From: an uncultured Acidimicrobiales bacterium
GTDB lineage: Bacteria > Actinomycetota > Acidimicrobiia > Acidimicrobiales > SZUA-35
Length of the DNA: 33,460 nucleotides
Direction: 5' to 3'
Assembly: GCA_938021675.1 (NCBI GenBank)
Contig: CALIFY010000093.1
Location: 1-33,460, forward strand
Shown piece after piece: positions 20,381 through 32,768 of the stretch; within the stretch, counting starts at the first letter, position 1; each line of letters opens with the position of its first letter. A program made the translations under genes and the position numbers. The notes under the pieces are model-generated. The model did not search any database. It was not told the origin of the DNA and worked only from the letters and a program-made list of their open reading frames with translations.

Positions 20381-20501
20381 GCTCTAGTTCTAGCTGAAGC
20401 GCCGAGTAGTTGTAGCCCGTATCGCCACAAACAACATCTCGGTACCGTGACCGTCGGCCTATCTGGGTCAAGTAGTTTCACCCACCGGTCGAAGGGTCGA
20501 T

Positions 20502-23500
20502 GTGACGATTCTACGAATGAGGGACGTAGGTTTCTCTCGGCCGATGGCTGCATTGACGGCCGTAGCCGTGTTTGCCACAAGTTTGGCCGTGTTACCGGGG
20601 AGGGTGTCAGCCGAGGGGGCACCGGTCACCGGCAGCCTATGGGTCGACTTCAACCGGGATGGTGACTTCGACGCAGGGGAAACTGCGGCCGACACCAGCT
20701 CATACTTTCCACCAGCTGGGATCACCATCACGGCATACGACATCGACGGTAACACCGCAACCGGGTTCGTCGACCCCGGCGACCCGCCAACGTACTCGAT
20801 TGATGTCAGCGGACTCGTCGGCACCGACTTCGTCGTCACCTACGAGCTCGATCCGGCCGACGTCACCGCCGGATACACCGAAACCTTCCCCGGGACCGAC
20901 CAGGTCGGGGCGACTCGAGTCGTCAGCGCCGGCGACATCTCGCATTTCGGGATCCTGCCCCCGTCCGAGTGCCCCCGCTCCGGCACTGGCGCCGATAGCC
21001 ATGCCAACGCCGCCGACGGCAAAGTATGGACGACTTGTTTCACCAACGGTGACCGTTCCAGCGATCCCCCGGCCGGCTCTCCCGACTTCAGTCTCTTGGG
21101 TCTCAATAACGTGGACGGCAACGACGACTTCATTGAGCAACTAGGCAACCGGGATCGGCTCGGCTCCATCTGGGGCCTGGCCTACGACGAATGGTCGGGA
21201 ACTCTTTACACGTCATCGTTCCTGAAGCGGCACAGCGAGTTGCCCGACGCTGACCAGGACGGCGATAACGATCTTGGCGGCCTCATGTGGCTCGATTATT
21301 CCGACGGCCTAGCCCCGACTGAGACCGTCTACGGCACCGACCTATCAGAAGACGCTGGTGGGCCGACCTACGGCGACGTCGAGCATCCTTCGCTGGTCGA
21401 CGGGAGTAGGGACGTCGACACCACCGCGTCCACTATGCCAAGTTTCGACTCCGACGCCTTCGCGCTGGTCGGGGCAACCGGGATCGGCGACATCGACTTG
21501 ACCCCTGACGGTCGCACGCTGCTAGTCATGAACCTGGAGACCAAGTCACTCGACCTGTACGACGTATCGTCGGTGCAATCCAATAGTGCCACCGGAGCCC
21601 CGGTCTTCTCGTCATCGATCGCAATGCCCGACCCGGGCTGCTCAATCCTGTCCACTACCCCGGCCTACCAACACCAGCCATTTGGTGTCACCACGGTCGA
21701 CGGCGACACCGCGCTGGTCGGCATCCAATGCGCTGACAATCTGCTGGGCGCGGTGTACGAGATCGCTCTCCCCGGCGGGGCCGCTACCCAGCTTGTGACG
21801 CTCGATGCGGCATACTATGCCCGAGCCGACCGGGGCGTCGGCCTAACCGAGACCTGGAACTCGTGGACCGATGACTTCTTCGAGCTGACAATCGAACCAA
21901 ACGGGGGCGGCTGGCCGACCGGCACCCACTACAACGCATACCGAAGCCAGCCCCTGATCTCCGACATCAACGTAAGTTCCGATGGCTCGATGGACATCAC
22001 CTTGATGGACCGCTCCGGCCACCAGATTGGCTGGGTCAACCGCAGTACTGACCCGACCGACACCGGAAGCTATTACATAGGTTTGGCATCGGGCGACACA
22101 TTGTACGTCTGCGCCAATGGTGCTCTGGAAGGCACGGCCGGCTGCCCGGTGGCCGACTCGGCCGAGGGCTTCTACACCGCCGATATCTTCCCCGGTGCCC
22201 ATCACGAGACCACAGTCGGCGGCGCCTGGGTCGGCGATTGGAGCCCGGAGCACGTCACCGTGCAGATGGATGCTCCCGATGCGTTCAACGCTGGCGGCAT
22301 CATGTGGTGGCCTCGCCTTGAAGACAGCCCAGAACTTGGCCTGACCGAGTTCTACAGTGGCGTATGGGCTAGCTCGGACCCCGGGGCCGGGTTCTTCTTA
22401 GGCAAGGCGGCCGGGATGGGCGATGTAGAGGGCTGCAATACCCCCCAATTCATCGGCGATTACGTCTGGCTAGACGCTGACAGCGACGGCATCCAGGATC
22501 CCGACGAGCAACCACTGGCCGAAGTTTCGGTGACGTTGTCCACCAGCAGCGGTCCGATAGCGACCACTGAGACCGATGGCGGTGGACACTACTCGTTCAC
22601 CTCGGCCGACGGAGTGCTGCCCAACAGCGACTACACAATCGAGTTCGACGTGGGCACGGCCAGCAACGCCCCGTCCGATCCAACCCAGCTCGTACCGACG
22701 TTGATCGACCAGGTCGATGAGCTGCGAGACTCCGACATCGATGTAGACGAGCGGCTGGCCGTCACCACATTGCCCCTCGGTATCAACCAGTCCGACCTGG
22801 ACGCCGGTTACGTCGCCCCGCTCGTCATCGGCGACTATGTATGGTTCGACGCCGACAGCGACGGCCTCCAGGGTCTCGACGAGTCCGGCATCGGGGGCGT
22901 TACCGTTTCGCTCTATGCCGACGATGGCGTTAGCCTGCTCGGCACCGCCGTCACCGACTCCGATGGCTTCTACCGGTTCTCGTCAGCAGTGTCCGAGCCG
23001 GCGGCAGGCAACGGTGACAACGTAGGCGGGGGTCTACCGGCCGACCAGGCGGTCAGTATCCGGCTCGACAATCCAGACGACTATGCCACGGGGCCCCTCA
23101 CCTCCTATCGGTTGACCGACCCGGACCAGACGTCGGCCGATCCCGGAGATGTCGATGATGAGGTCGACAGCGACGCAATGCTCGTCGACGGCTTCCCCCA
23201 GATGGGCGTGCCGGCTCAGTCGGATGGGGAGGACCTCAGCTTCGACGCCGGGTTCGTGCTGCCGCCGTTGCGGACCGGCAACATCGTTTGGTTCGACGAT
23301 AACAACGACGGCCGCTATGACCTAGGCGAATCCCCGATCGAGGGCGTAGTAGTCGAGCTCTACCCTGACGTCGGTAACGATGGAATCTTCGTCGAAGGTG
23401 TAGACGATGTCGGGCCGGCGTTATCCCCCGATACCCCCGGCGTGAATACGACTGGGAGCGACGGCCGCTGGCATGTCGACGGTCTGGCCGCCGGCACCTA

Positions 23501-26500
23501 CTTCGCCACCATCGCCTCAGGTCAGACCGCAACCATTGACGGCGCCCCACGTTCGCTCGACAACTACCTCTCGTCGAGCGGAGCAAGTCAGGACCCCGGA
23601 CCGAATACGACCGACAACATCGACGACGGTCAGCCGGTTGGGAGCTACGCCTCAGTCTCGGGACTCATCACCCTGGCAAATGGCGCCCTACCCCAGTCCG
23701 AAGTCGACAACACGAGCCAAGACGCCGAGGCCGCAGCAGAGCTGGTGACGGCCGAGTCCTATGCTGACAACGACTCGGACCTGACCGTCGACTTCGGGTT
23801 CGCCGAGAGCCTCCGAGTCGGGTCGACGCTATTTCTCGATCAAGAAAACGACGGCGCATACAACAACGCGGACACCGCCCTCGAAGATGTCATCGTCCAG
23901 TTACTGGACGCCGATAGCACGATCGTGGCCACAACCGAGACCGACGCTTCTGGCTTCTACTTTTTTGACGGTCTCGAACCGAATGTCGAGTATTTGATTG
24001 GAGTTCCCGCCGACCAGTCCGCCGCCCCCGATCCAACGGCTACTACCCAGCTGGTTGCCTCAACGGTGGTAACCGATGACATCGTTGCCGACAACCAGAA
24101 CCATGGCGCTCCAGCAGATGGTTTCCTGGCGGTGACCGCACCGTTCACCTTGGCCGCGGCCGGCGCCGGCTCGGACGAAGTCGAGGGTGTCGGGGGCGCC
24201 GACACCGAAGCGGGCGCAACCGCAGCGTTGACTACCAAGAACGACGCCAACTCCTACCTCGGGATTGACATAGGCCTAACGCCGTTCAACCTTTACCAGG
24301 TGGGCAATCAGGTTTGGTTCGACACCGACAACAACGGAATGCTCGATGGCGACGAGGTCGGGATCGACGGCGTTCTTGTCCAGCTGGTCGACGACGACAC
24401 CGCTGTGGTCGACGAAGTCAGCACTGCGTCCGGCGGCTTCTACTCCTTTACCGACCTCCCTGCTGGGACCTATGCCGTCCGGATTCCCGACGATCAGTCG
24501 ACCGCCGATGACCCAACCGCGCTCGATGATCTCGTTTCGTCGACCGGCCACATCGACCCCGACGACGTTGACGACGGTACAGCCCCCGAACCGAGCGACG
24601 ACCAGCGAGACAACGGCGAACCGGTCAGTGGCATAGCCCGGTCAGCATCGGCGCCGTTCGTGTTGGGCGACCCCAACGGTCAACCGGCCGACGACGGTGA
24701 ACCGGTGAACGAGATAGCCGAGGACGGGGTACTGCCCGACGGCCAATCTGATTTCACCGTGGACTTCGGCTTCTACCAGCCCCACCGGCTCGGCAACCTG
24801 GTGTGGGAAGACTTCGACGACGATGGCGCGGTCGACCCCGGCGAACCGGGTATTGACGGAGTCGAAGTAGCGCTGTTGGACGCTGACGGCGAGCCGGTCC
24901 GCGACGTTACTGGCGCCGCTATCACCGACACCACCGACAATGATGGCCACTATGAGTTCAGCGACCTGATAGCAGGCACCTACGAGGTGGCTATCGTCGC
25001 CGGTCAGAGCGTGCTTACCGGTTTCGAAGCCGGTGGAATCTCGACGGGTGAGAACGAGATCGACAACGACAACAATGCCAACGGTGACAGCGCAATAGGC
25101 TGGACCTCCGGTCCTATAAGCCTCGGGCTCGACAACGGTGAGCCGACGACAGAGACAGACGCCAATACCAACGTGTCTGCGGAAGACGCTACCGTGGCCG
25201 ACGACGCGTCCGACCTCACAGTCGACTTCGGCTTTCACCGTGGCCAGCGGTTGGGGGGCCAGATCTGGCTCGACGAGGGCACCGCTCAGAACGATGGTGT
25301 GTTCGATTCCGATGAGAACGCTATCGTCGGCCTCACCACCGAACTCTGGCTCGACGACGGTGACGACGTGTTCGAGCCCGACGATGACACTCGGCTCGAT
25401 GCAACACCAACTGACGGCGAGGGGAACTACGTCTTCGCCGGGGTGAGGGCCGACGATGCCTACTTCGTGGCAGTGGTACAAGGGACTGACGATCGGATCT
25501 CGTCAGCCGGCGCATCCTCCGATCCGATGCTGGACGACAACGTCGACGACGGTACCGACAGCGCCCCAGCCGGATACGTGACCGTCAGCGATTCGCTTTC
25601 CCTGGCTGGTCCCGGTCTTGAACCCACCGGTGAGACCGACACCCTTCCGCTGGCCGACGAGACCGAGAGCGACGCCAACGTAGTGACCGACTTCTATCCC
25701 GACGACAACTCGAACCTCCAGATCGACTTCGGCCTAATCGAAATGCCGCTGTTCCGTCTCGGTAACCTTGTCTGGGTCGACAACGACGGTGACGGATTGG
25801 CCGAGCCGGGCGAACCGGCGCTGCCCGGCATCACGGTCGAGTTGTACGACAGCCTCGATCAACTGATCGACAGCGACACCACCGACGACACAGGCCACTA
25901 CGAGTTCACCAACCTTGCGGCCGAGACCTACACCGTCTCTATCCCCCTCGATCAGGCAACGCTAGCCCCGTACCGGCTGAACTCGATCCACGAACAGACC
26001 GACGAGACCGACAACAACAACGACGGCATCACCGTGGATTCAGCCGCCACCTCCGCCGCCATCACTCTCGGCGAGAATGGATACAACGACGAACCGACCG
26101 ACGAAACTCTCCGGGCCGGTAGTCCGATCGACGATGACAGCGGCGACGGCGGCGTGGTCGGCGACGACCGCTCAGACATGACCATCGACTTCGGGTTCTA
26201 CGCCCTATCGCTGGGGAATCAGGTCTTCCTCGATCTTGACAACGACGGCCAATTCGAGCCCGGTGACGACGAGATCCCGATCGAAGGGGTCCAGGTCAAC
26301 CTGCTCGACGGCGACGGCGAACCGGTGCAGGACGAAACCGGAGCCGACCTTACGGCCGTGACCGACGAACAGGGCCTCTACCTCTTTACTGCCCTGGAAA
26401 ACGACGCCGACTACATCGTCGAGATCGACGGCTCGAACTTCGGACCCGGCCAGCCGCTGAACGATCACTGGTCGTCGACCGGGACGGCCACCGACATCGT

Positions 26501-29500
26501 GGCCGATGGCGAGGACGACGGCGTCGACCCCATCACCGTGACCGGCGACCTCGACACATTCGCCGTCCGATCGTCGACGGTGACCATGCAACTGGGTCAA
26601 GAACGAGAAGGCGAGGACCCCGACAACGATCCCGACACCGCCGACGATTCGGAAGACCTCACCGTCGACTTTGGGTTCTACTCTCTATCCCTAGGCGACA
26701 CCGTATTTCACGACATCGACAACTCCGGGGACGACAACGGCGGGACCGATGCCGGACTGGCCGGCGTCGAACTCGAACTGTGGCTTGACGACGGTGACGG
26801 TACCTTCGACCCCACCGTCGACTCCCTAACCGACACCAGCACCACTGGCGCTGCCGGACAATACCGGTTCGAAGGCTTGATCGACGACGCCGAATACTTC
26901 GTGGTAGTGGCGGCCGATAACTTCAATGACTCCGGAGTTCTTGATGGATTCCGATCGTCGACCGACGATGACCAAACCGACCAACTCGACGGAACCGACG
27001 ATGGGATAGACCCGACCGCTAACGACCCGACGGTCGTGGCCGGACCAGTAACGGCCGACGCCGGCACCGAGCCTGAAGAACTCGGGCAACACGATCCGAC
27101 GGTCGACGTTGGCTTCTACACCCTCTCGCTCGGCAATCAGGTCTGGTACGACGTCGACGCATCAGCCACCTTCGATGACGGGGAGACGCCGGTCGAGGAC
27201 GTCGTGGTCAACTTGATCGACGCCGACACCGGCGAGATACTCGACACCGCCACTACCGATGCCTTCGGCGCCTACCTATTCACCGGCCTGGTAGACGGTC
27301 AGGCGTACGTGGTCGAGATACCAGCCGAGAACTTCGATATCGCCGCACCGCTCGACGGCTGGTTCTCGTCCCCGGCGGCTCCGGCCGGGGACGATGGCGA
27401 TGACAATGGCATCGATCCGGTCATTGTCCCTGGCGACCTGAACAGTCTGGCTGTCCGGTCGGCTGAGGTCATCCCCGAGGCCGGCGTCGACCCCGGGGCC
27501 GACGGCGACGGGGTCCCACCGGTCAACGTCGACACCGACACCGATACCGATATCGACGGGGATGACCTCCGACCAGATAGCAACGAGAACTTGCTGGTCG
27601 ACTTCGGCTTCTACCAGCTGGCGGTCGGCAATCTAGTGTGGCTCGACATCGACAATTCGGGCACGGTCGACGATGGCGAAGAGCCGGTGCCCGGCGTGAT
27701 CGTCAACCTGCTCGATGCAAGCGGTGACTCCGTGCTTCACCCAGTCGACGGTGCACCGGTCACCGCCACCACCGGTCCTGACGGGACGTATGTCTTCGAG
27801 GGTCTTCCCGAGGGAACGTACGTGGTCGAAATTGATGCTGCCAACTTCGTTGACGATGGCCCGCTGGTCGGCACCGTGTCGTCGGAAGGGAACGACGTCG
27901 TCCCAGGCCAGGCTCCGGCCCCAGATGCCGACCCGACCGATGACGACGACAACGGCAACTTAGTCGACGCTGCCGGTACACCGGTCGTGGGGAGCCTCGT
28001 GTTCGACGCTGTCCGCGCCATCCCGGTCGCCCTGACCGGCGGGGAGGAACCGGTCGATCCGGCCGACGAACCGCTGGGATTGGCCGACGACGGTTCGGCC
28101 AACGCCACCGTCGACTTCGGCTTCTGGCCCCACCCGCCGTTCGAGATCGGGTCGACCATCTGGTTCGACTCCGACAACTCGGGCGATGGGGCCGATGTCG
28201 ATGGCAGCAACGAGCCGGCGGCCGATGACGTAGTAGTCAACCTCCTGGTCCTCGACGAGGCCACCGATGCCTACGTTCCGGCGGTCGACATCGACGGCGG
28301 ACCGGTCCCCCCGAGCACGACGGTCGACGGGGCCTATAACTTCACCGGCCTCCCGGCCGGCACCTACGTCGTCCAACTGGACCCGGCCAACACCGCCGCA
28401 GGCGGACCTCTCGACGGGCACAGCGTGTCGACCGGCCCGGCTTCGGCGACCGACCCCGAAGACCAGGTCGACGGCAACAACGACGGACTAATCGATCCCG
28501 AACTCGGCATGGTGTCCGGGCCGATCGTCCTGGCCATCGACGACCAACCCACCGGAGAGATCGACGGTTCGCCGAACGGAACCGACGACCGGTTCACCGA
28601 CCTGACCGTCGACATCGGCCTCGTCCCTACTCTCGAATTGGGCGATGAGGTCTGGATCGACCTCGACAATGACGGCCAGCTCGACCCCGACGAGGACTTC
28701 GCCCCTGACGGAGTGATCGTCAATCTGCTCGATGCCGGCGGGGACGTGGTGGGGACAACGACCACCACCGACGGCCGGTATCGGTTCGACGATCTACTTG
28801 AAGGTGACTACATCGTCGAGCTCGACGCTGCCAACTTCGCCGCCGACGGTGGGCTGGTTGGCTACGTAGCCTCGACCGGGGCCGCCTCGTCGATCACTCC
28901 CAACGACGATGTCGACCAGAACAACGACGGCACCGGTGAGCCAGGCCAGGTCATCCAATCCGGAGTGGTAACGCTGGCCTTCGCCTCCGAACCGTCGGCC
29001 GACGACGGCTCAGCCAACCACACCGTCGACTTCGGTGTCGTCCCCCGCCTGGCTCTCGGGGCCACAATCTGGCTCGACGGCGATAACGACGGCATCCTCG
29101 ACCCCGAAGAACTGCCGATTCCCGGCGTGGTCGTGCAACTGCTCGACGAGACAGGCGGAGTGCTGGCCGAGACCGCAACCGACGACGAGGGTCGATACTT
29201 CTTCGGCGACCTCGACCCGGGCACCTATACGGTGCAGCTCCCGGCGTCGAACTTCTCTTCCGGCGGGGTCCTGGAGAATTACGCCCCGTCGACCGGTCCC
29301 GGCGCCAACCAGAATGACAACGTCGACGGCAACTCCGACGGCGTGCTGGTCGACGGCAACCTCCGATCGGGACCCATCGTCTTGTCCTACGGCCAGGAGG
29401 TGGCCGGCAACGGCCTGCTCAACGTCACCGCCGACTTCGGCCTGGTCGAGCTAGCCCAATTGGCCGGTCTAGTGTGGCACGACGAGAACGGTGACGGCAT

Positions 29501-29963
29501 CCAGGGTCCGGACGAGGCCGGACTGGGAGGAGTCGAGGTCACCCTGGAAGACGCCGCCGGCGTCGTCATGGCCGAGATCACCGCCGGCGACGATGGCCGG
29601 TTCGCCATGACCGGGCTGCCGCCCGAGGCATACTCGATCTCGTTCGTCCTCTCGTCGCTCCCGGCTGGAGCCACCGTGACAACGGCCGACCAGGGCACCG
29701 ACGACACTGCCGACAGCGACGCCAACGCCGACGCTCGCGTCCTCGACATCGTGCTCAACAGCGGCGACATGATCGACAACATCGCCATGGGTGTCAAGCT
29801 GCCTAGTCCGTCGAACAGCGCCGACAATGGGACGGTACCAACTCTCTTGGCCTTCACCGGCCAGCACGGCTCGACCATGCTCGTCGCCGCCGGACTTTTG
29901 ATCATTGCCGGCGGCGGTCTTCTCCGATCCCGGCGACGGTTGCGCCCAGGGCTTCGAACCTGA
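20502..29963 (+). CDS. Giant LAFTG-anchored surface protein with 16 SdrD-B-like repeats
   Basis: The 3153-residue product has a signal peptide with cleavage likely after VSA (residue 37), an SdrB-like first domain (about 40-155, SLWVDFNRDGDFDAGE), a propeller-like region (about 155-650; GSIWGLAYDEWSGTLYTSSF, IGDIDLTPDGRTLLVMN), and 16 SdrD-B-like repeats starting near residues 652, 777, 926, 1107, 1268, 1431, 1585, 1754, 1905, 2065, 2211, 2376, 2550, 2714, 2853 and 2989. Most repeats run GNxVWxDxDNDGxxDxxE, then GVxVxLxDxxG, a GxYxFxxLxxGxY strand, an S-S-T-G-like segment and VDFGFY. LAFTG (3116-3120), a hydrophobic helix and a basic tail form a sortase signal. Acidic loops suggest calcium binding. 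The GTG at 20502 follows GAAGGG. An adhesin, matrix or surface-layer role is inferred; no sortase gene is in the window. Confidence 0.9.
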   Translation: MTILRMRDVGFSRPMAALTAVAVFATSLAVLPGRVSAEGAPVTGSLWVDFNRDGDFDAGETAADTSSYFPPAGITITAYDIDGNTATGFVDPGDPPTYSIDVSGLVGTDFVVTYELDPADVTAGYTETFPGTDQVGATRVVSAGDISHFGILPPSECPRSGTGADSHANAADGKVWTTCFTNGDRSSDPPAGSPDFSLLGLNNVDGNDDFIEQLGNRDRLGSIWGLAYDEWSGTLYTSSFLKRHSELPDADQDGDNDLGGLMWLDYSDGLAPTETVYGTDLSEDAGGPTYGDVEHPSLVDGSRDVDTTASTMPSFDSDAFALVGATGIGDIDLTPDGRTLLVMNLETKSLDLYDVSSVQSNSATGAPVFSSSIAMPDPGCSILSTTPAYQHQPFGVTTVDGDTALVGIQCADNLLGAVYEIALPGGAATQLVTLDAAYYARADRGVGLTETWNSWTDDFFELTIEPNGGGWPTGTHYNAYRSQPLISDINVSSDGSMDITLMDRSGHQIGWVNRSTDPTDTGSYYIGLASGDTLYVCANGALEGTAGCPVADSAEGFYTADIFPGAHHETTVGGAWVGDWSPEHVTVQMDAPDAFNAGGIMWWPRLEDSPELGLTEFYSGVWASSDPGAGFFLGKAAGMGDVEGCNTPQFIGDYVWLDADSDGIQDPDEQPLAEVSVTLSTSSGPIATTETDGGGHYSFTSADGVLPNSDYTIEFDVGTASNAPSDPTQLVPTLIDQVDELRDSDIDVDERLAVTTLPLGINQSDLDAGYVAPLVIGDYVWFDADSDGLQGLDESGIGGVTVSLYADDGVSLLGTAVTDSDGFYRFSSAVSEPAAGNGDNVGGGLPADQAVSIRLDNPDDYATGPLTSYRLTDPDQTSADPGDVDDEVDSDAMLVDGFPQMGVPAQSDGEDLSFDAGFVLPPLRTGNIVWFDDNNDGRYDLGESPIEGVVVELYPDVGNDGIFVEGVDDVGPALSPDTPGVNTTGSDGRWHVDGLAAGTYFATIASGQTATIDGAPRSLDNYLSSSGASQDPGPNTTDNIDDGQPVGSYASVSGLITLANGALPQSEVDNTSQDAEAAAELVTAESYADNDSDLTVDFGFAESLRVGSTLFLDQENDGAYNNADTALEDVIVQLLDADSTIVATTETDASGFYFFDGLEPNVEYLIGVPADQSAAPDPTATTQLVASTVVTDDIVADNQNHGAPADGFLAVTAPFTLAAAGAGSDEVEGVGGADTEAGATAALTTKNDANSYLGIDIGLTPFNLYQVGNQVWFDTDNNGMLDGDEVGIDGVLVQLVDDDTAVVDEVSTASGGFYSFTDLPAGTYAVRIPDDQSTADDPTALDDLVSSTGHIDPDDVDDGTAPEPSDDQRDNGEPVSGIARSASAPFVLGDPNGQPADDGEPVNEIAEDGVLPDGQSDFTVDFGFYQPHRLGNLVWEDFDDDGAVDPGEPGIDGVEVALLDADGEPVRDVTGAAITDTTDNDGHYEFSDLIAGTYEVAIVAGQSVLTGFEAGGISTGENEIDNDNNANGDSAIGWTSGPISLGLDNGEPTTETDANTNVSAEDATVADDASDLTVDFGFHRGQRLGGQIWLDEGTAQNDGVFDSDENAIVGLTTELWLDDGDDVFEPDDDTRLDATPTDGEGNYVFAGVRADDAYFVAVVQGTDDRISSAGASSDPMLDDNVDDGTDSAPAGYVTVSDSLSLAGPGLEPTGETDTLPLADETESDANVVTDFYPDDNSNLQIDFGLIEMPLFRLGNLVWVDNDGDGLAEPGEPALPGITVELYDSLDQLIDSDTTDDTGHYEFTNLAAETYTVSIPLDQATLAPYRLNSIHEQTDETDNNNDGITVDSAATSAAITLGENGYNDEPTDETLRAGSPIDDDSGDGGVVGDDRSDMTIDFGFYALSLGNQVFLDLDNDGQFEPGDDEIPIEGVQVNLLDGDGEPVQDETGADLTAVTDEQGLYLFTALENDADYIVEIDGSNFGPGQPLNDHWSSTGTATDIVADGEDDGVDPITVTGDLDTFAVRSSTVTMQLGQEREGEDPDNDPDTADDSEDLTVDFGFYSLSLGDTVFHDIDNSGDDNGGTDAGLAGVELELWLDDGDGTFDPTVDSLTDTSTTGAAGQYRFEGLIDDAEYFVVVAADNFNDSGVLDGFRSSTDDDQTDQLDGTDDGIDPTANDPTVVAGPVTADAGTEPEELGQHDPTVDVGFYTLSLGNQVWYDVDASATFDDGETPVEDVVVNLIDADTGEILDTATTDAFGAYLFTGLVDGQAYVVEIPAENFDIAAPLDGWFSSPAAPAGDDGDDNGIDPVIVPGDLNSLAVRSAEVIPEAGVDPGADGDGVPPVNVDTDTDTDIDGDDLRPDSNENLLVDFGFYQLAVGNLVWLDIDNSGTVDDGEEPVPGVIVNLLDASGDSVLHPVDGAPVTATTGPDGTYVFEGLPEGTYVVEIDAANFVDDGPLVGTVSSEGNDVVPGQAPAPDADPTDDDDNGNLVDAAGTPVVGSLVFDAVRAIPVALTGGEEPVDPADEPLGLADDGSANATVDFGFWPHPPFEIGSTIWFDSDNSGDGADVDGSNEPAADDVVVNLLVLDEATDAYVPAVDIDGGPVPPSTTVDGAYNFTGLPAGTYVVQLDPANTAAGGPLDGHSVSTGPASATDPEDQVDGNNDGLIDPELGMVSGPIVLAIDDQPTGEIDGSPNGTDDRFTDLTVDIGLVPTLELGDEVWIDLDNDGQLDPDEDFAPDGVIVNLLDAGGDVVGTTTTTDGRYRFDDLLEGDYIVELDAANFAADGGLVGYVASTGAASSITPNDDVDQNNDGTGEPGQVIQSGVVTLAFASEPSADDGSANHTVDFGVVPRLALGATIWLDGDNDGILDPEELPIPGVVVQLLDETGGVLAETATDDEGRYFFGDLDPGTYTVQLPASNFSSGGVLENYAPSTGPGANQNDNVDGNSDGVLVDGNLRSGPIVLSYGQEVAGNGLLNVTADFGLVELAQLAGLVWHDENGDGIQGPDEAGLGGVEVTLEDAAGVVMAEITAGDDGRFAMTGLPPEAYSISFVLSSLPAGATVTTADQGTDDTADSDANADARVLDIVLNSGDMIDNIAMGVKLPSPSNSADNGTVPTLLAFTGQHGSTMLVAAGLLIIAGGGLLRSRRRLRPGLRT
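22455..29810 (+). repeat. 16 divergent SdrD-B-like coding repeats
   Basis: Repeat starts in the DNA are at 22455, 22830, 23277, 23820, 24303, 24792, 25254, 25761, 26214, 26694, 27132, 27627, 28149, 28641, 29058 and 29466. Lengths vary from about 115 to 181 codons. Units share protein motifs but are visibly different in DNA sequence and in inserted loops, so this is an old, selected array rather than a fresh tandem duplication. The last unit (HDENGDG, then GVEVTLEDAAG) is the shortest and lacks the long inter-strand loop. Confidence 0.85.
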
Positions 29964-29975
29964 ACCGAAAGGCGA

Positions 29976-30019
29976 GCCCCCGAAACTGGGGCCGGCTACC
30001 GGACTTGTTGGTAGCCGGC
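29976..30019. terminator. Bidirectional hairpin between convergent genes
   Basis: GCCGGCTACC (29991-30000) and GGTAGCCGGC (30010-30019) form a perfect 10-bp stem with a 9-base loop. A smaller GCCCC/GGGGC stem (29976-29980, 29988-29992) precedes it and shares its last two bases with it. The large stem includes the stop codon of the leftward gene. It starts 27 bp after the giant gene's stop. There is no U-tract on either side, so it may be a U-less or bidirectional terminator. Confidence 0.55.
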
Positions 30020-30916
30020 CTCCGGGCTCCAGCGAAACACGATCGTCTCCGCCCCTTGGTCGGCCGGATGGGCCCGAAGGCTGAAGTCAAAGTCGATGGC
30101 GGTGGCCACTATGTTGACCGGTGCGGTGGCATCGGGCCGAAGCTTGATGGCTCGGACCGAGAGGGAGGCGCCCTCGCCTTCCAGCCGGGTCAGCAACGTA
30201 GGTTCCGACAATTCATCGGCCACCGGCACCACGTACAAGGCGCCGGCCCGAGCCGCCCCTAGCACTAGGACCCGGCTGCCGAGGCTCCGGCCGATGGCGA
30301 TCGAGGTGGCGTCGAACCCATCACCGAGTAGCGCGGCCTCGCCGGTCCGCCGATCGATCCGCCAGATCGAGCCTGATTCGGTCTCAGGGGTGCTCCCGGT
30401 CAGAGAGGTCGCGTATAAGTAGGGTTCGATGCAGTCGACAGCCAGTCCCATGATCCCGAACGGTTGATCGAGCGGATCGTGGGTCAGCGGCAGTTCGGCC
30501 CACGGGGCTAGCTCCCCGGTCTGGGGATCGACCCGAAAGATTGTGTTGCGCTGCTCGGCAGGGTTCTCCATCACGTCGATCACCGCCCGCGGTACGGTAA
30601 ACACCTCACCTCCGGCCGAGATGGAGATGGCGCCCAGATCGCCGGCCTCTGAGTACGAAGGGTGCACGAAGCTCTCCTGCCGGCCGTCCTCGCTCTGAAA
30701 AACAACGACAAGGCCCTGCGATTCCCGGGTGGCGGTAGTGAACACTGGATCGATCATCCCAGCTTCGGTGGCGAACGGTGGGGTCCCGTTACACGAGTCG
30801 AGCGTGATCGGCCCGGCGATCTCGACCCCGCGACTGGACGTACCAACTGCGACCACAGCTGCTGCGCCGGCCAAGGTCAGCACACCGACCGCGATCGCCA
30901 ACCCTCGCCGGCTCAC
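29996..30916 (-). CDS. Exported propeller-like protein of unknown function
   Basis: The 306-residue product starts with a basic segment (SRR) and a hydrophobic helix (about 5-28), fitting a signal peptide or membrane anchor. The rest is beta-rich, with blade-like segments such as GIMGLAVDCIEPYLYATSL, GSIWRIDRRTGEAALLG and FDATSIAIG, which suggests a small beta-propeller, an inference. No catalytic motif is recognised. The frame opens at an ATG at 30952, but a GTG at 30916 overlaps the stop of the upstream gene by 4 bp, the junction type common in this genome, and directly precedes the export signal; neither has a clear ribosome-binding site. It is convergent with the giant surface-protein gene and probably co-transcribed with the lipoprotein gene upstream. 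Confidence 0.7.
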   Translation of the reverse strand: MSRRGLAIAVGVLTLAGAAAVVAVGTSSRGVEIAGPITLDSCNGTPPFATEAGMIDPVFTTATRESQGLVVVFQSEDGRQESFVHPSYSEAGDLGAISISAGGEVFTVPRAVIDVMENPAEQRNTIFRVDPQTGELAPWAELPLTHDPLDQPFGIMGLAVDCIEPYLYATSLTGSTPETESGSIWRIDRRTGEAALLGDGFDATSIAIGRSLGSRVLVLGAARAGALYVVPVADELSEPTLLTRLEGEGASLSVRAIKLRPDATAPVNIVATAIDFDFSLRAHPADQGAETIVFRWSPEAGYQQVR

Positions 30917-32640
30917 CGTGCCAGAGGCCGGAAGATCGGGCCAGCTGAGCATGACGAGACGTCATTGCGGGCCAGGCCATCGTCGCCGACCACGGTCTCG
31001 ACCCAGCACGCCTCCGACCCCGGAGTCGGATCGTTGTGCAACTCGGGTACGACCCATACCACCGTGTCGGTCCCGCTCAATGTCTCGTCGTCGACAAACT
31101 GTTCGGGACCCTGCCGTTGATCGGCGTTGCAGCAGGGGCCGATGGTGACCAGCTCGCTGGCACCCTCCGCCGATGGTCGCCCTTCGGTGAAATACACCCA
31201 GGCTGGGTGCTCCTGCTCGTCGTGTTCGACCGACTCGATCGGCACCTCTAGCTCATAGTTATCACCTAGTTGAACGGTGTGGCGTGAGGCCGAGGTCTGA
31301 AACCACTCCTCCCGCTCGACCCGGCCACCGTCGATCATCGATAGGCTGGCCGGAAGAGCGACGCGGAGTACGGGTCGGTACACACCGGTATCGCCGCATC
31401 CCTTGCCCTGACTGGTGGCGACCGGGCGGAACGTGCCATCGCTATACATCCGTAGGCTCTGACGGTAATTGTAGCTGCACGGCGCCGGCCAACCTTCAGA
31501 CCAGTAGTCCTGATCCAGACTGAGGCCCACACCCAAGCTGTCGTCGATCGATCGAACGACCGGCACGTCGGCCGCTACCACAGCAGCCTGGGCGAAAGCC
31601 GGGCAACCTACAGCATCGGAGTAACCGAACCCGTCGTTGAGGGAGTATGAGACGTGCCAGTCGACCAGCTTGATCGACTCGGCCACCACCGTCCCCTCGA
31701 AGGCCAGGTCCTGGATGTGGAGCCCGTCGGAAGAAGTTAGTTGGTAGGTGGCCGACCACGGCCCTTCGGCCAGCTCATGCGACTCGTTGCAGTAGCGCTC
31801 GATTTGTACCTCTTCGGCTCGCCGGAGGGTGACCGGCTCAAGCAACTGGTCGGCGTCGTCGGAATCGAATCGGGTCCACGCTGCGCCGGCCACCACCAGC
31901 TCGGTAAGGTCGACGATGGCCCAAACCGCCCCGTCGTCGTTGAGGTATGTGGGGGCGACACAGAGATGTTCCTGGCGCTCGCAGCGAGAGCGAGACAGGC
32001 TGGTCTTGGTGGAGGCCATAACCGCCTCGTCAGTCCCGACACCGTATTCGGTCCGCAACTCGTCGACCACGGAGCTACTTGAGGCTAAAGACTCGGCCAC
32101 CTCGATCAGGTGGGCTGGAATGTCAGGAACGGTCCGCGGTTGGACAAACGAGTCTGATACCTCGCCACGGCTCAGATCGACATAGGCGGTCAGCGTCGCA
32201 TGGTTGGTGTAGTCGTAGAGTTCGACCCTACGACACTGGGCAACGTTGGCACAGTGGTCGGGACTCACGTCACCGGCACTCGGTTGGGTCACCGAAAAAA
32301 ACTCGACCAGGAAGTTCCCGTCGGCGATCTGCCGTTCCGACTCAGCCCAGAAGTCAGAGTCGAGAAAGATCTCATAGGCGGCCCGGTCCCCGGAGTCGGT
32401 ATCGAGGTCGAGCAGTGAGAAGGCTTGGCCCGGCGTTCTGACCTTGCGGTAGCGGGCGGCGACGACGACGTCCTCGGCCTCCATTTTGGCCGTCTCGACA
32501 TCGACTAGCTCGGCCCGGGCCGGGTCGACGGACTCCAACCGGGCTCCATCAGCCCCGACGCAAGCGACGCCGAGCAAACAGATCATCATCGATAACGAAC
32601 GCGAGGCAACCGACCGAGTCGCAGCGGAATACATCGGCAC
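30913..32640 (-). CDS. Putative lipoprotein with copper amine oxidase-like architecture
   Basis: The 575-residue product begins with an export signal and a possible lipobox LLGVAC (C27). I recognise features paralleling copper amine oxidases: two DL-T/S-x-x-E-type segments (YVDLSRGEV 153-161, IVDLTELVV 242-250), LHIQDLAFEGTVV then DWHVSYSLNDGFGY (307-340), CSYNYRQSLRMYSDGTFRPV (388-407) resembling the N-Y-[DE] topaquinone region, and TLSGTDTVVWVVPELHN (520-536) resembling the block around the third copper-ligand histidine (H535). However the residue after Y392 is Arg rather than Asp/Glu, and the expected HxH pair is not seen; the matching place reads GVYRPVLRVAL. A non-enzymatic or altered relative is thus likelier than an active oxidase. 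The ATG at 32640 follows AGGGTG. Homology is inferred by eye, not computed. Confidence 0.6.
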   Translation of the reverse strand: MPMYSAATRSVASRSLSMMICLLGVACVGADGARLESVDPARAELVDVETAKMEAEDVVVAARYRKVRTPGQAFSLLDLDTDSGDRAAYEIFLDSDFWAESERQIADGNFLVEFFSVTQPSAGDVSPDHCANVAQCRRVELYDYTNHATLTAYVDLSRGEVSDSFVQPRTVPDIPAHLIEVAESLASSSSVVDELRTEYGVGTDEAVMASTKTSLSRSRCERQEHLCVAPTYLNDDGAVWAIVDLTELVVAGAAWTRFDSDDADQLLEPVTLRRAEEVQIERYCNESHELAEGPWSATYQLTSSDGLHIQDLAFEGTVVAESIKLVDWHVSYSLNDGFGYSDAVGCPAFAQAAVVAADVPVVRSIDDSLGVGLSLDQDYWSEGWPAPCSYNYRQSLRMYSDGTFRPVATSQGKGCGDTGVYRPVLRVALPASLSMIDGGRVEREEWFQTSASRHTVQLGDNYELEVPIESVEHDEQEHPAWVYFTEGRPSAEGASELVTIGPCCNADQRQGPEQFVDDETLSGTDTVVWVVPELHNDPTPGSEACWVETVVGDDGLARNDVSSCSAGPIFRPLAR

Positions 32641-32768
32641 CGCGTCACCCTAGCTCGACCAAGGTAGTGGAGCAGCGACCAACCAAGTGATACGAATCGT
32701 CGCCGCCACACGAGCTGTCAGCCGACCCAAGTCGCGGTTGTGGCCCCCGCTCGCCGTGTAGAAGCCTC

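Follow-up and report, generated by a model that had tools for sequence, protein, structure and literature searches.

A giant, probably sortase-anchored protein with a stalk of sixteen SdrD-B-like modules and an uncatalogued head in an uncultured Acidimicrobiales bacterium

A gene that occupies over a quarter of the window (the whole 33,460-nucleotide stretch of DNA analyzed here) raises the question of how a protein of 3153 residues is built, held and used at the surface of an uncultured Acidimicrobiales bacterium. The open reading frame (20502–29963, forward strand) has a GTG start codon with the sequence GAAGGG 5 nt upstream and contains no internal stops. From the N- to the C-terminus, its product has a putative export signal, then a single SdrD-B-like module and a head of approximately 490 residues, then 16 more SdrD-B modules and finally a LAFTG anchor, with the following coordinates in the window:

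20502..29963, forward strand: gene for the 3153-residue surface protein (open reading frame listing, translation)
20502..20612, forward strand: putative N-terminal export signal, residues 1–37 (translation, by eye)
20628..20951, forward strand: SdrD-B-like module N-terminal to the head, with the loop DFNRDGDFDAGE (motif scans, Pfam GEVED)
20964..22445, forward strand: head domain, residues 155–648, uncatalogued and likely propeller-like (family alignments, profile against the PDB)
22452..29792, forward strand: stalk of 16 SdrD-B-like modules, residues 651–3097 (Pfam, motif scans, model)
29847..29861, forward strand: LAFTG sorting motif, residues 3116–3120 (translation, genome motif census)
29862..29960, forward strand: hydrophobic segment and arginine-rich tail (translation, NCBIfam LPXTG_anchor over cut-off)

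Residues 1–37 have, by eye, the basic start, hydrophobic core and VSA end of an export signal, and the protein would be exported in Sec fashion. The module that precedes the head scores 25.4 bits against the Pfam GEVED model in a cut-down protein (cut-off, 24.4) and 15.7 bits in the whole protein. Pfam SdrD_B (PF17210) recognizes 16 stretches (649 bits versus a cut-off of 29.7; E 3.1e-199 for the protein as a whole), and a motif scan placed 17 module starts, one before the head at residue 43 and 16 between residues 651 and 2987. Pfam and motif scan agree, in one intact open reading frame, with the original prediction of a 3153-residue protein carrying 16 SdrD-B-like repeats. The stalk modules are 111–181 residues long and are on average 32% identical (range 23–52%; neighbors, 36%), a divergence that points to an old array. 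At the DNA level the repeats are short and diverged, and TRF lists two short, weak arrays within the gene and one outside. Such few, short and weak arrays, together with modules that are only 23–52% identical, make an assembly error in the stalk unlikely.

To the eye of structure prediction, the repeats resemble those of staphylococcal adhesins. A pair of modules, modelled with an alignment drawn from the window protein itself (its rows overlap, so that the real depth is 16 modules), reached a mean pLDDT of 81.2 and a pTM of 0.68. The best solved match of this pair in Foldseek is 10ps, the A2-A3-B1-B2 structure of Staphylococcus aureus SdrD (E 3.1e-17); further SdrD entries, UafA and pilins of the CnaB type rank below it. 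The TM-scores against SdrD are 0.40/0.21, low values that reflect a different or uncertain arrangement of the two domains with respect to each other. The modelled pair nonetheless has the SdrD-B fold that had been predicted for the repeats.

The composition of the stalk bears on how such a rod could be stiffened. Residues 651–3095 contain one lysine and no cysteine, are 21% aspartate plus glutamate and carry a net charge of −476. At the lysine rate of the 17 other proteins in the window (1.62% of 6793 residues), 39.6 lysines would be expected in these 2445 residues (P about 2e-16). The stalks of relatives are lysine-poor too, though to a smaller degree; that of the protein on G000:C5, for instance, has 13 lysines in 2277 residues. 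The Lys-Asn isopeptide bond of CnaB domains needs one lysine per module, a pattern absent from a stalk with one lysine across 16 modules, which nearly excludes bonds of this type. By contrast with the 2000 shuffles, where it occurs 0.14 times on average and three times at most, a strict EF-loop pattern is found nine times in the stalk. A relaxed pattern fits the N-terminal module and 11 of the 16 repeats of the stalk, in line with the acidic DxDxDG-type loops noted earlier in the translation; the five repeats that it does not fit count against the calcium-stiffened rod proposed below. PMC3775735 places an EF-hand-type loop in each B motif of Sdr proteins, reports it to be functional in SdrD and records no isopeptide bond for CnaBE3. 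By analogy, and given the loops identified here, calcium bound in EF-hand-type loops, rather than isopeptide bonds, would be the likely mechanism of stalk stiffening. A nearly lysine-free stalk also lends itself to asking if calcium by itself is enough to make a CnaB-type rod rigid.

The C-terminal LAFTG motif (residues 3116–3120) is followed by a hydrophobic stretch and an arginine-rich tail, an anchor that had been read from the translation and that passes the NCBIfam LPXTG_anchor model (17.8 bits; cut-off 15.9) and not the Pfam Gram_pos_anchor model (16.9 bits; cut-off 20). We identified four sortases in the genome of the window (G000; 4.45 Mb in 99 contigs, 95% complete). One is the class E sortase that was to be sought there, encoded on contig C55 and above the curated NCBIfam cut-off (166.5 versus 160 bits). 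The other three are nearest class F, with the sortase on C57 above the cut-off and those on C23 and C1 scoring 139 and 134 against a cut-off of 166. In the alignment, the class E enzyme has AGHR, TACHP and AQR motifs, which we take to be of the catalytic type. LAXTG is described as the signal taken by class E sortases, SrtE1 being said to recognize both the A and the P forms (PMC5148588). The LAFTG pattern had 15 matches in the genome versus 6 for a reversed control. Seven of the 15 read in frame as an anchor, the motif near the C-terminus being followed by a hydrophobic segment and basic residues (the giant gene and contigs C5, C25, C28, C50, C74 and C89), and the other eight do not; the match on C25 has an unusual run of 113 residues up to the stop. 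Those on C50, C74 and C89 (L063, L065 and L066) belong to further open reading frames that end in LAFTG anchors. We also noted that the class F-like sortase genes on C1 and C23 (L040 and L039) directly adjoin genes whose DUF4397 products have a hydrophobic C-terminus, which suggests dedicated pairs.

The sortase classes and the lysine count decide against a pilus shaft or tip protein polymerized by a class C sortase. Although the CnaB-like fold matches shaft pilins too (5f44 and 5hts), the single lysine in 2445 stalk residues speaks against this role, and none of the four sortases is of class C (best class C score, 62.8 versus 160). We rejected the pilus and isopeptide readings on these two grounds and consider a role in pili extremely improbable.

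We favor instead, as the probable explanation, a fibrillar, adhesin-like surface protein that is anchored by a class E sortase and consists of a calcium-stiffened acidic rod and a propeller-like head that binds or acts. The sortase would cut LAFTG between T and G and the protein would become covalently joined to peptidoglycan. The sixteen modules would form a long, strongly acidic rod, holding the compact, propeller-like head out past the wall, where it may bind or act on a target that a surface or another cell presents. The adhesin function is what we infer from the architecture, and the interpretation originally given to the protein is supported on the whole: neither of the two outcomes that were to speak against it, a genome lacking sortases and repeats of another fold, turned up.

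Proteins of this kind are known. Tandem stalk domains and a head distal to a C-terminal sortase anchor are features of the fibrillar adhesin-like proteins described in two surveys (PMC8286594, PMC9210967), and the stalk domains named in the second include SdrD_B and DUF11 (PMC9210967). By the measure of Pfam, the head corresponds to no adhesive domain known from such proteins, which counts against the adhesin reading. However, the same surveys state that more than 90% of the predicted proteins with known stalks have no known adhesive domain (PMC8286594, PMC9210967), so a missing one is an expected gap. The protein also resembles S. aureus SdrD and SdrC (MSCRAMM Clf-Sdr) in its B-type modules (by PF17210 and by the fold of 10ps), its EF-hand-type loops, the N-terminal side position of its head and its sortase anchor. 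It differs from them in having no recognized A region, no SD-repeat by eye, LAFTG in place of LPXTG, and 16 modules versus the 2–5 given in PMC3775735. Neither full-length NCBIfam model reached its cut-off (SdrD, 390 versus 2500 bits; SdrC, 333 versus 1700). Chaplins are small hydrophobic proteins, unlike the giant, acidic and multi-domain window protein. As class E substrates, the Streptomyces chaplins ChpA-C nevertheless share with it a LAXTG-type signal and a class E sortase, as described in PMC5148588. We found no report in the literature pairing Acidimicrobiia with SdrD or with sortase, which does not prove the protein undescribed; a passage on the Ilumatobacter coccineum genome mentions 13 LPXTG-motif open reading frames as possible adhesion factors (PMC3910706). 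Here, a giant SdrD-B stalk protein and a class E sortase are found together in one actinobacterial genome. Its placement in Actinomycetota is supported by WhiB genes, which gave six matches here and, among 14 control genomes, matched in Corynebacterium rings only. While the protein is of a known kind, a fibrillar adhesin-like substrate of class E sortase, its uncatalogued head is the part worth study.

The head of the window protein matched no family in Pfam (E up to 1) or NCBIfam (E up to 0.1) and is a domain absent from both catalogues. Among 18 head members searched against Pfam (E up to 1), the Lactonase family (PF10282) was matched by four (best E 0.0016), the window's head not being one of them, and the YVTN propeller repeat by two (best E 0.003). 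The head profile retrieved ten PDB entries at E up to 10. The first eight are propellers of the lactonase or YVTN type or belong to the beta subunit of hydrazine synthase, 3scy having the best E (3.3e-5); the last two are CutA proteins (E 1.4 and 1.5). The best stretches of the propeller matches span 27–46 residues, all about one blade-like motif. Comparison of the profile with itself revealed no strong internal repeat (best off-diagonal P 0.014), and AlphaFold2 with single-sequence input returned a mean pLDDT of 35.9. The propeller-like head of the original prediction is moderately supported: with weak profile matches to beta-propellers and no strong internal repeat, the fold is likely rather than proven.

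Conservation within the head is strong at a few charged positions. Seventeen positions (numbered as in the window protein) are invariant in 18 aligned members, including R243, C410, W455, D503, R504, H567, E569, D590, K635 and D641. Eight further members outside this alignment (L021, L023, L024, L025, L033, L094, L095 and L097) all keep D503, H567, E569 and K635, which are therefore present in 26 of 26 heads examined. R504 is kept in six of these eight (24 of 26 overall) and D641 in seven (25 of 26); the scope of R243 and D590 is the 18 aligned rows, all of which have them. Reactive residues conserved to this degree are consistent with an enzyme, such as a surface-displayed hydrolase or lactonase-like propeller, that the stalk merely brings to its substrate in a role other than adhesion, since binding surfaces usually vary more. 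The solved matches of the profile also include 6-phosphogluconolactonases (3scy) and a periplasmic gluconolactonase (6igb, E 0.047). However, these matches are confined to the single blade-like motif, PF10282 was matched by some members only and never by the window's head, and the invariant charged residues may equally hold structure or metal. We regard an enzymatic head as rather unlikely.

The distribution of the head helps separate what is conserved in these proteins from what is not. With the N-terminal 658 residues as the query, the head was present in 12 of the 39 genomes searched in the family, its own included, and had no match in 11 other genomes of the genus (81–98% complete). In the phylum, the family profile (E 1e-20) identified it in at least 4 of 396 genomes, its own included, a lower bound because the threshold was strict and at most two candidates were scored per listed genome. 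The head also occurs on Streptomyces megaplasmids: five plasmid records match it (three from Streptomyces clavuligerus and two from Streptantibioticus cattleyicolor; 21–23% identity over 88–89% of the query), and the giant gene itself had no megablast match to plasmids. The head family had no match in viral contigs, and a contig search with the N-terminal part of the window protein found one locus, in Mycetocola, that matched the repeat only (query residues 651–676).

The anchor accompanies the head. We read 15 head proteins of the family genomes, 13 of them with a complete C-terminus (the headless protein on G000:C28 is not counted). In all 13, the end consists of [LI][AP]xTG, a hydrophobic segment and basic residues, the second letter of the motif being A in 11 and P in two; the P at P3 of these two (LPVTG) is less typical of class E and weighs against the adhesin reading. 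Both plasmid head proteins that were read end in LAHTG or LANTG, and no LPXTG-like motif was seen in the relative on G253. An L[A/P]xTG-type anchor is thus present in 15 of the 16 head proteins read to the end, a count that leaves out L021, L023, L024 and L025 (whose ends lie beyond the DNA) and L033, L094, L095 and L097.

The stalks, on the other hand, vary. The head protein on G018:C5 has 15 SdrD-B stretches and that on G000:C41 has three, whereas those on G000:C5, G004:C19, G005:C10 and G006:C1 have DUF11 arrays with 2–3 SdrD-B stretches. The window's genome encodes two proteins of about 3000 residues with heads about 35–41% identical and different stalks. In the proteins of S. clavuligerus pSCL4 and S. 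cattleyicolor pSCAT, the same head, an SdrD-B module (by eye) and a LANTG / LAHTG anchor fit within only 852 and 863 amino acids, with a Pro/Thr-rich stretch in place of the long stalk. Because the same head occurs on other stalks and with almost none, conservation lies in the head and not in giant size. Head and anchor together make up the conserved unit, one that is shared with Streptomyces, and the still unnamed head by itself is a concrete target for the study of ligand or activity.

These stalks could also be viewed as a surface coat, a charged brush of long acidic rods that serves spacing, hydration or the binding of divalent cations and in which the head has no specific partner. The net charge of −476 is consistent with this function, as is the second giant of the genome, an Asp-rich protein of 3037 residues with the same type of head and anchor. 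Yet a spacer needs no head, and this one is conserved across genera even without a long stalk, which makes a mere coat improbable. A bolder reading, which we consider less likely than not, sees the head as a propeller domain that is displayed on actinobacterial walls, is missing from the catalogues and has a conserved site for activity or ligand binding made up of D503-R504, H567-x-E569, K635, D641 and R243. Its stalks (16 SdrD-B modules, DUF11 arrays or almost none) would be interchangeable, so that reach could be tuned independently of function, and the mycofactocin and ergothioneine neighborhoods of some members would hint at a redox role at the surface.

Several head-family proteins are about 1000–1480 amino acids long (L046 in G037, L050 in G004, L051 in G006, L052 in G005 and L053 in G038). 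Genes near these short proteins include a mycofactocin radical SAM maturase that passes its cut-off in L050 and L053, the ergothioneine genes egtD/egtB, which do so in L053, an enoyl-CoA hydratase (L051) and a CoxL-like molybdenum hydroxylase (scored in L046 and L053, under every cut-off). The other genes around them were recognized by eye only, and some of the stretches end before the full set is covered. No such gene neighborhood was seen around the paralogues that were read in the genome of the window.

Returning to the window, the giant gene lies with two orphan genes in a stretch that sets this chromosome apart from those of its relatives:

20381..32717, no strand assigned: 12.3-kb stretch that holds the giant gene and two orphans (six genomes of the genus lack it at this site)
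29996..30952, reverse strand: 318-aa orphan, convergent with the giant gene (family genome search)
30913..32640, reverse strand: 575-aa orphan whose start looks lipobox-like to the eye (family genome search)

A search of 38 further genomes of the family gave no relative of either orphan. Neither has a Pfam family at cut-off, and the 318-residue protein has no solved relative below E 0.078. By eye, the latter has a propeller-like stretch of the GSIWRID type, and the 575-residue protein starts with a lipobox-like LGVAC. No terminator-like site was found in 29900–30060. The Pol IV gene has matches in ten other genomes of the genus, and we read its surroundings in the six of highest identity (63–76%). 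The order DUF58, transglutaminase, Pol IV and NUDIX is conserved in all six, as far as each stretch reaches, and the giant protein and the two orphans have no match there at E 1e-5. In four of the six, the NUDIX match is followed at 120–240 bases by a relative of the gene at 32718, a distance that is 12,337 bases in the window. Gain here and loss elsewhere cannot be told apart. Composition gives no sign of a recent foreign origin (63.5% GC in the stretch versus 62.6% upstream). In L088, a 120-residue open reading frame without a tblastn match adjoins NUDIX. In G025, an unrelated open reading frame of 688 residues occupies the same place (L089, 6025–8091), suggesting that the site may be a variable spot.
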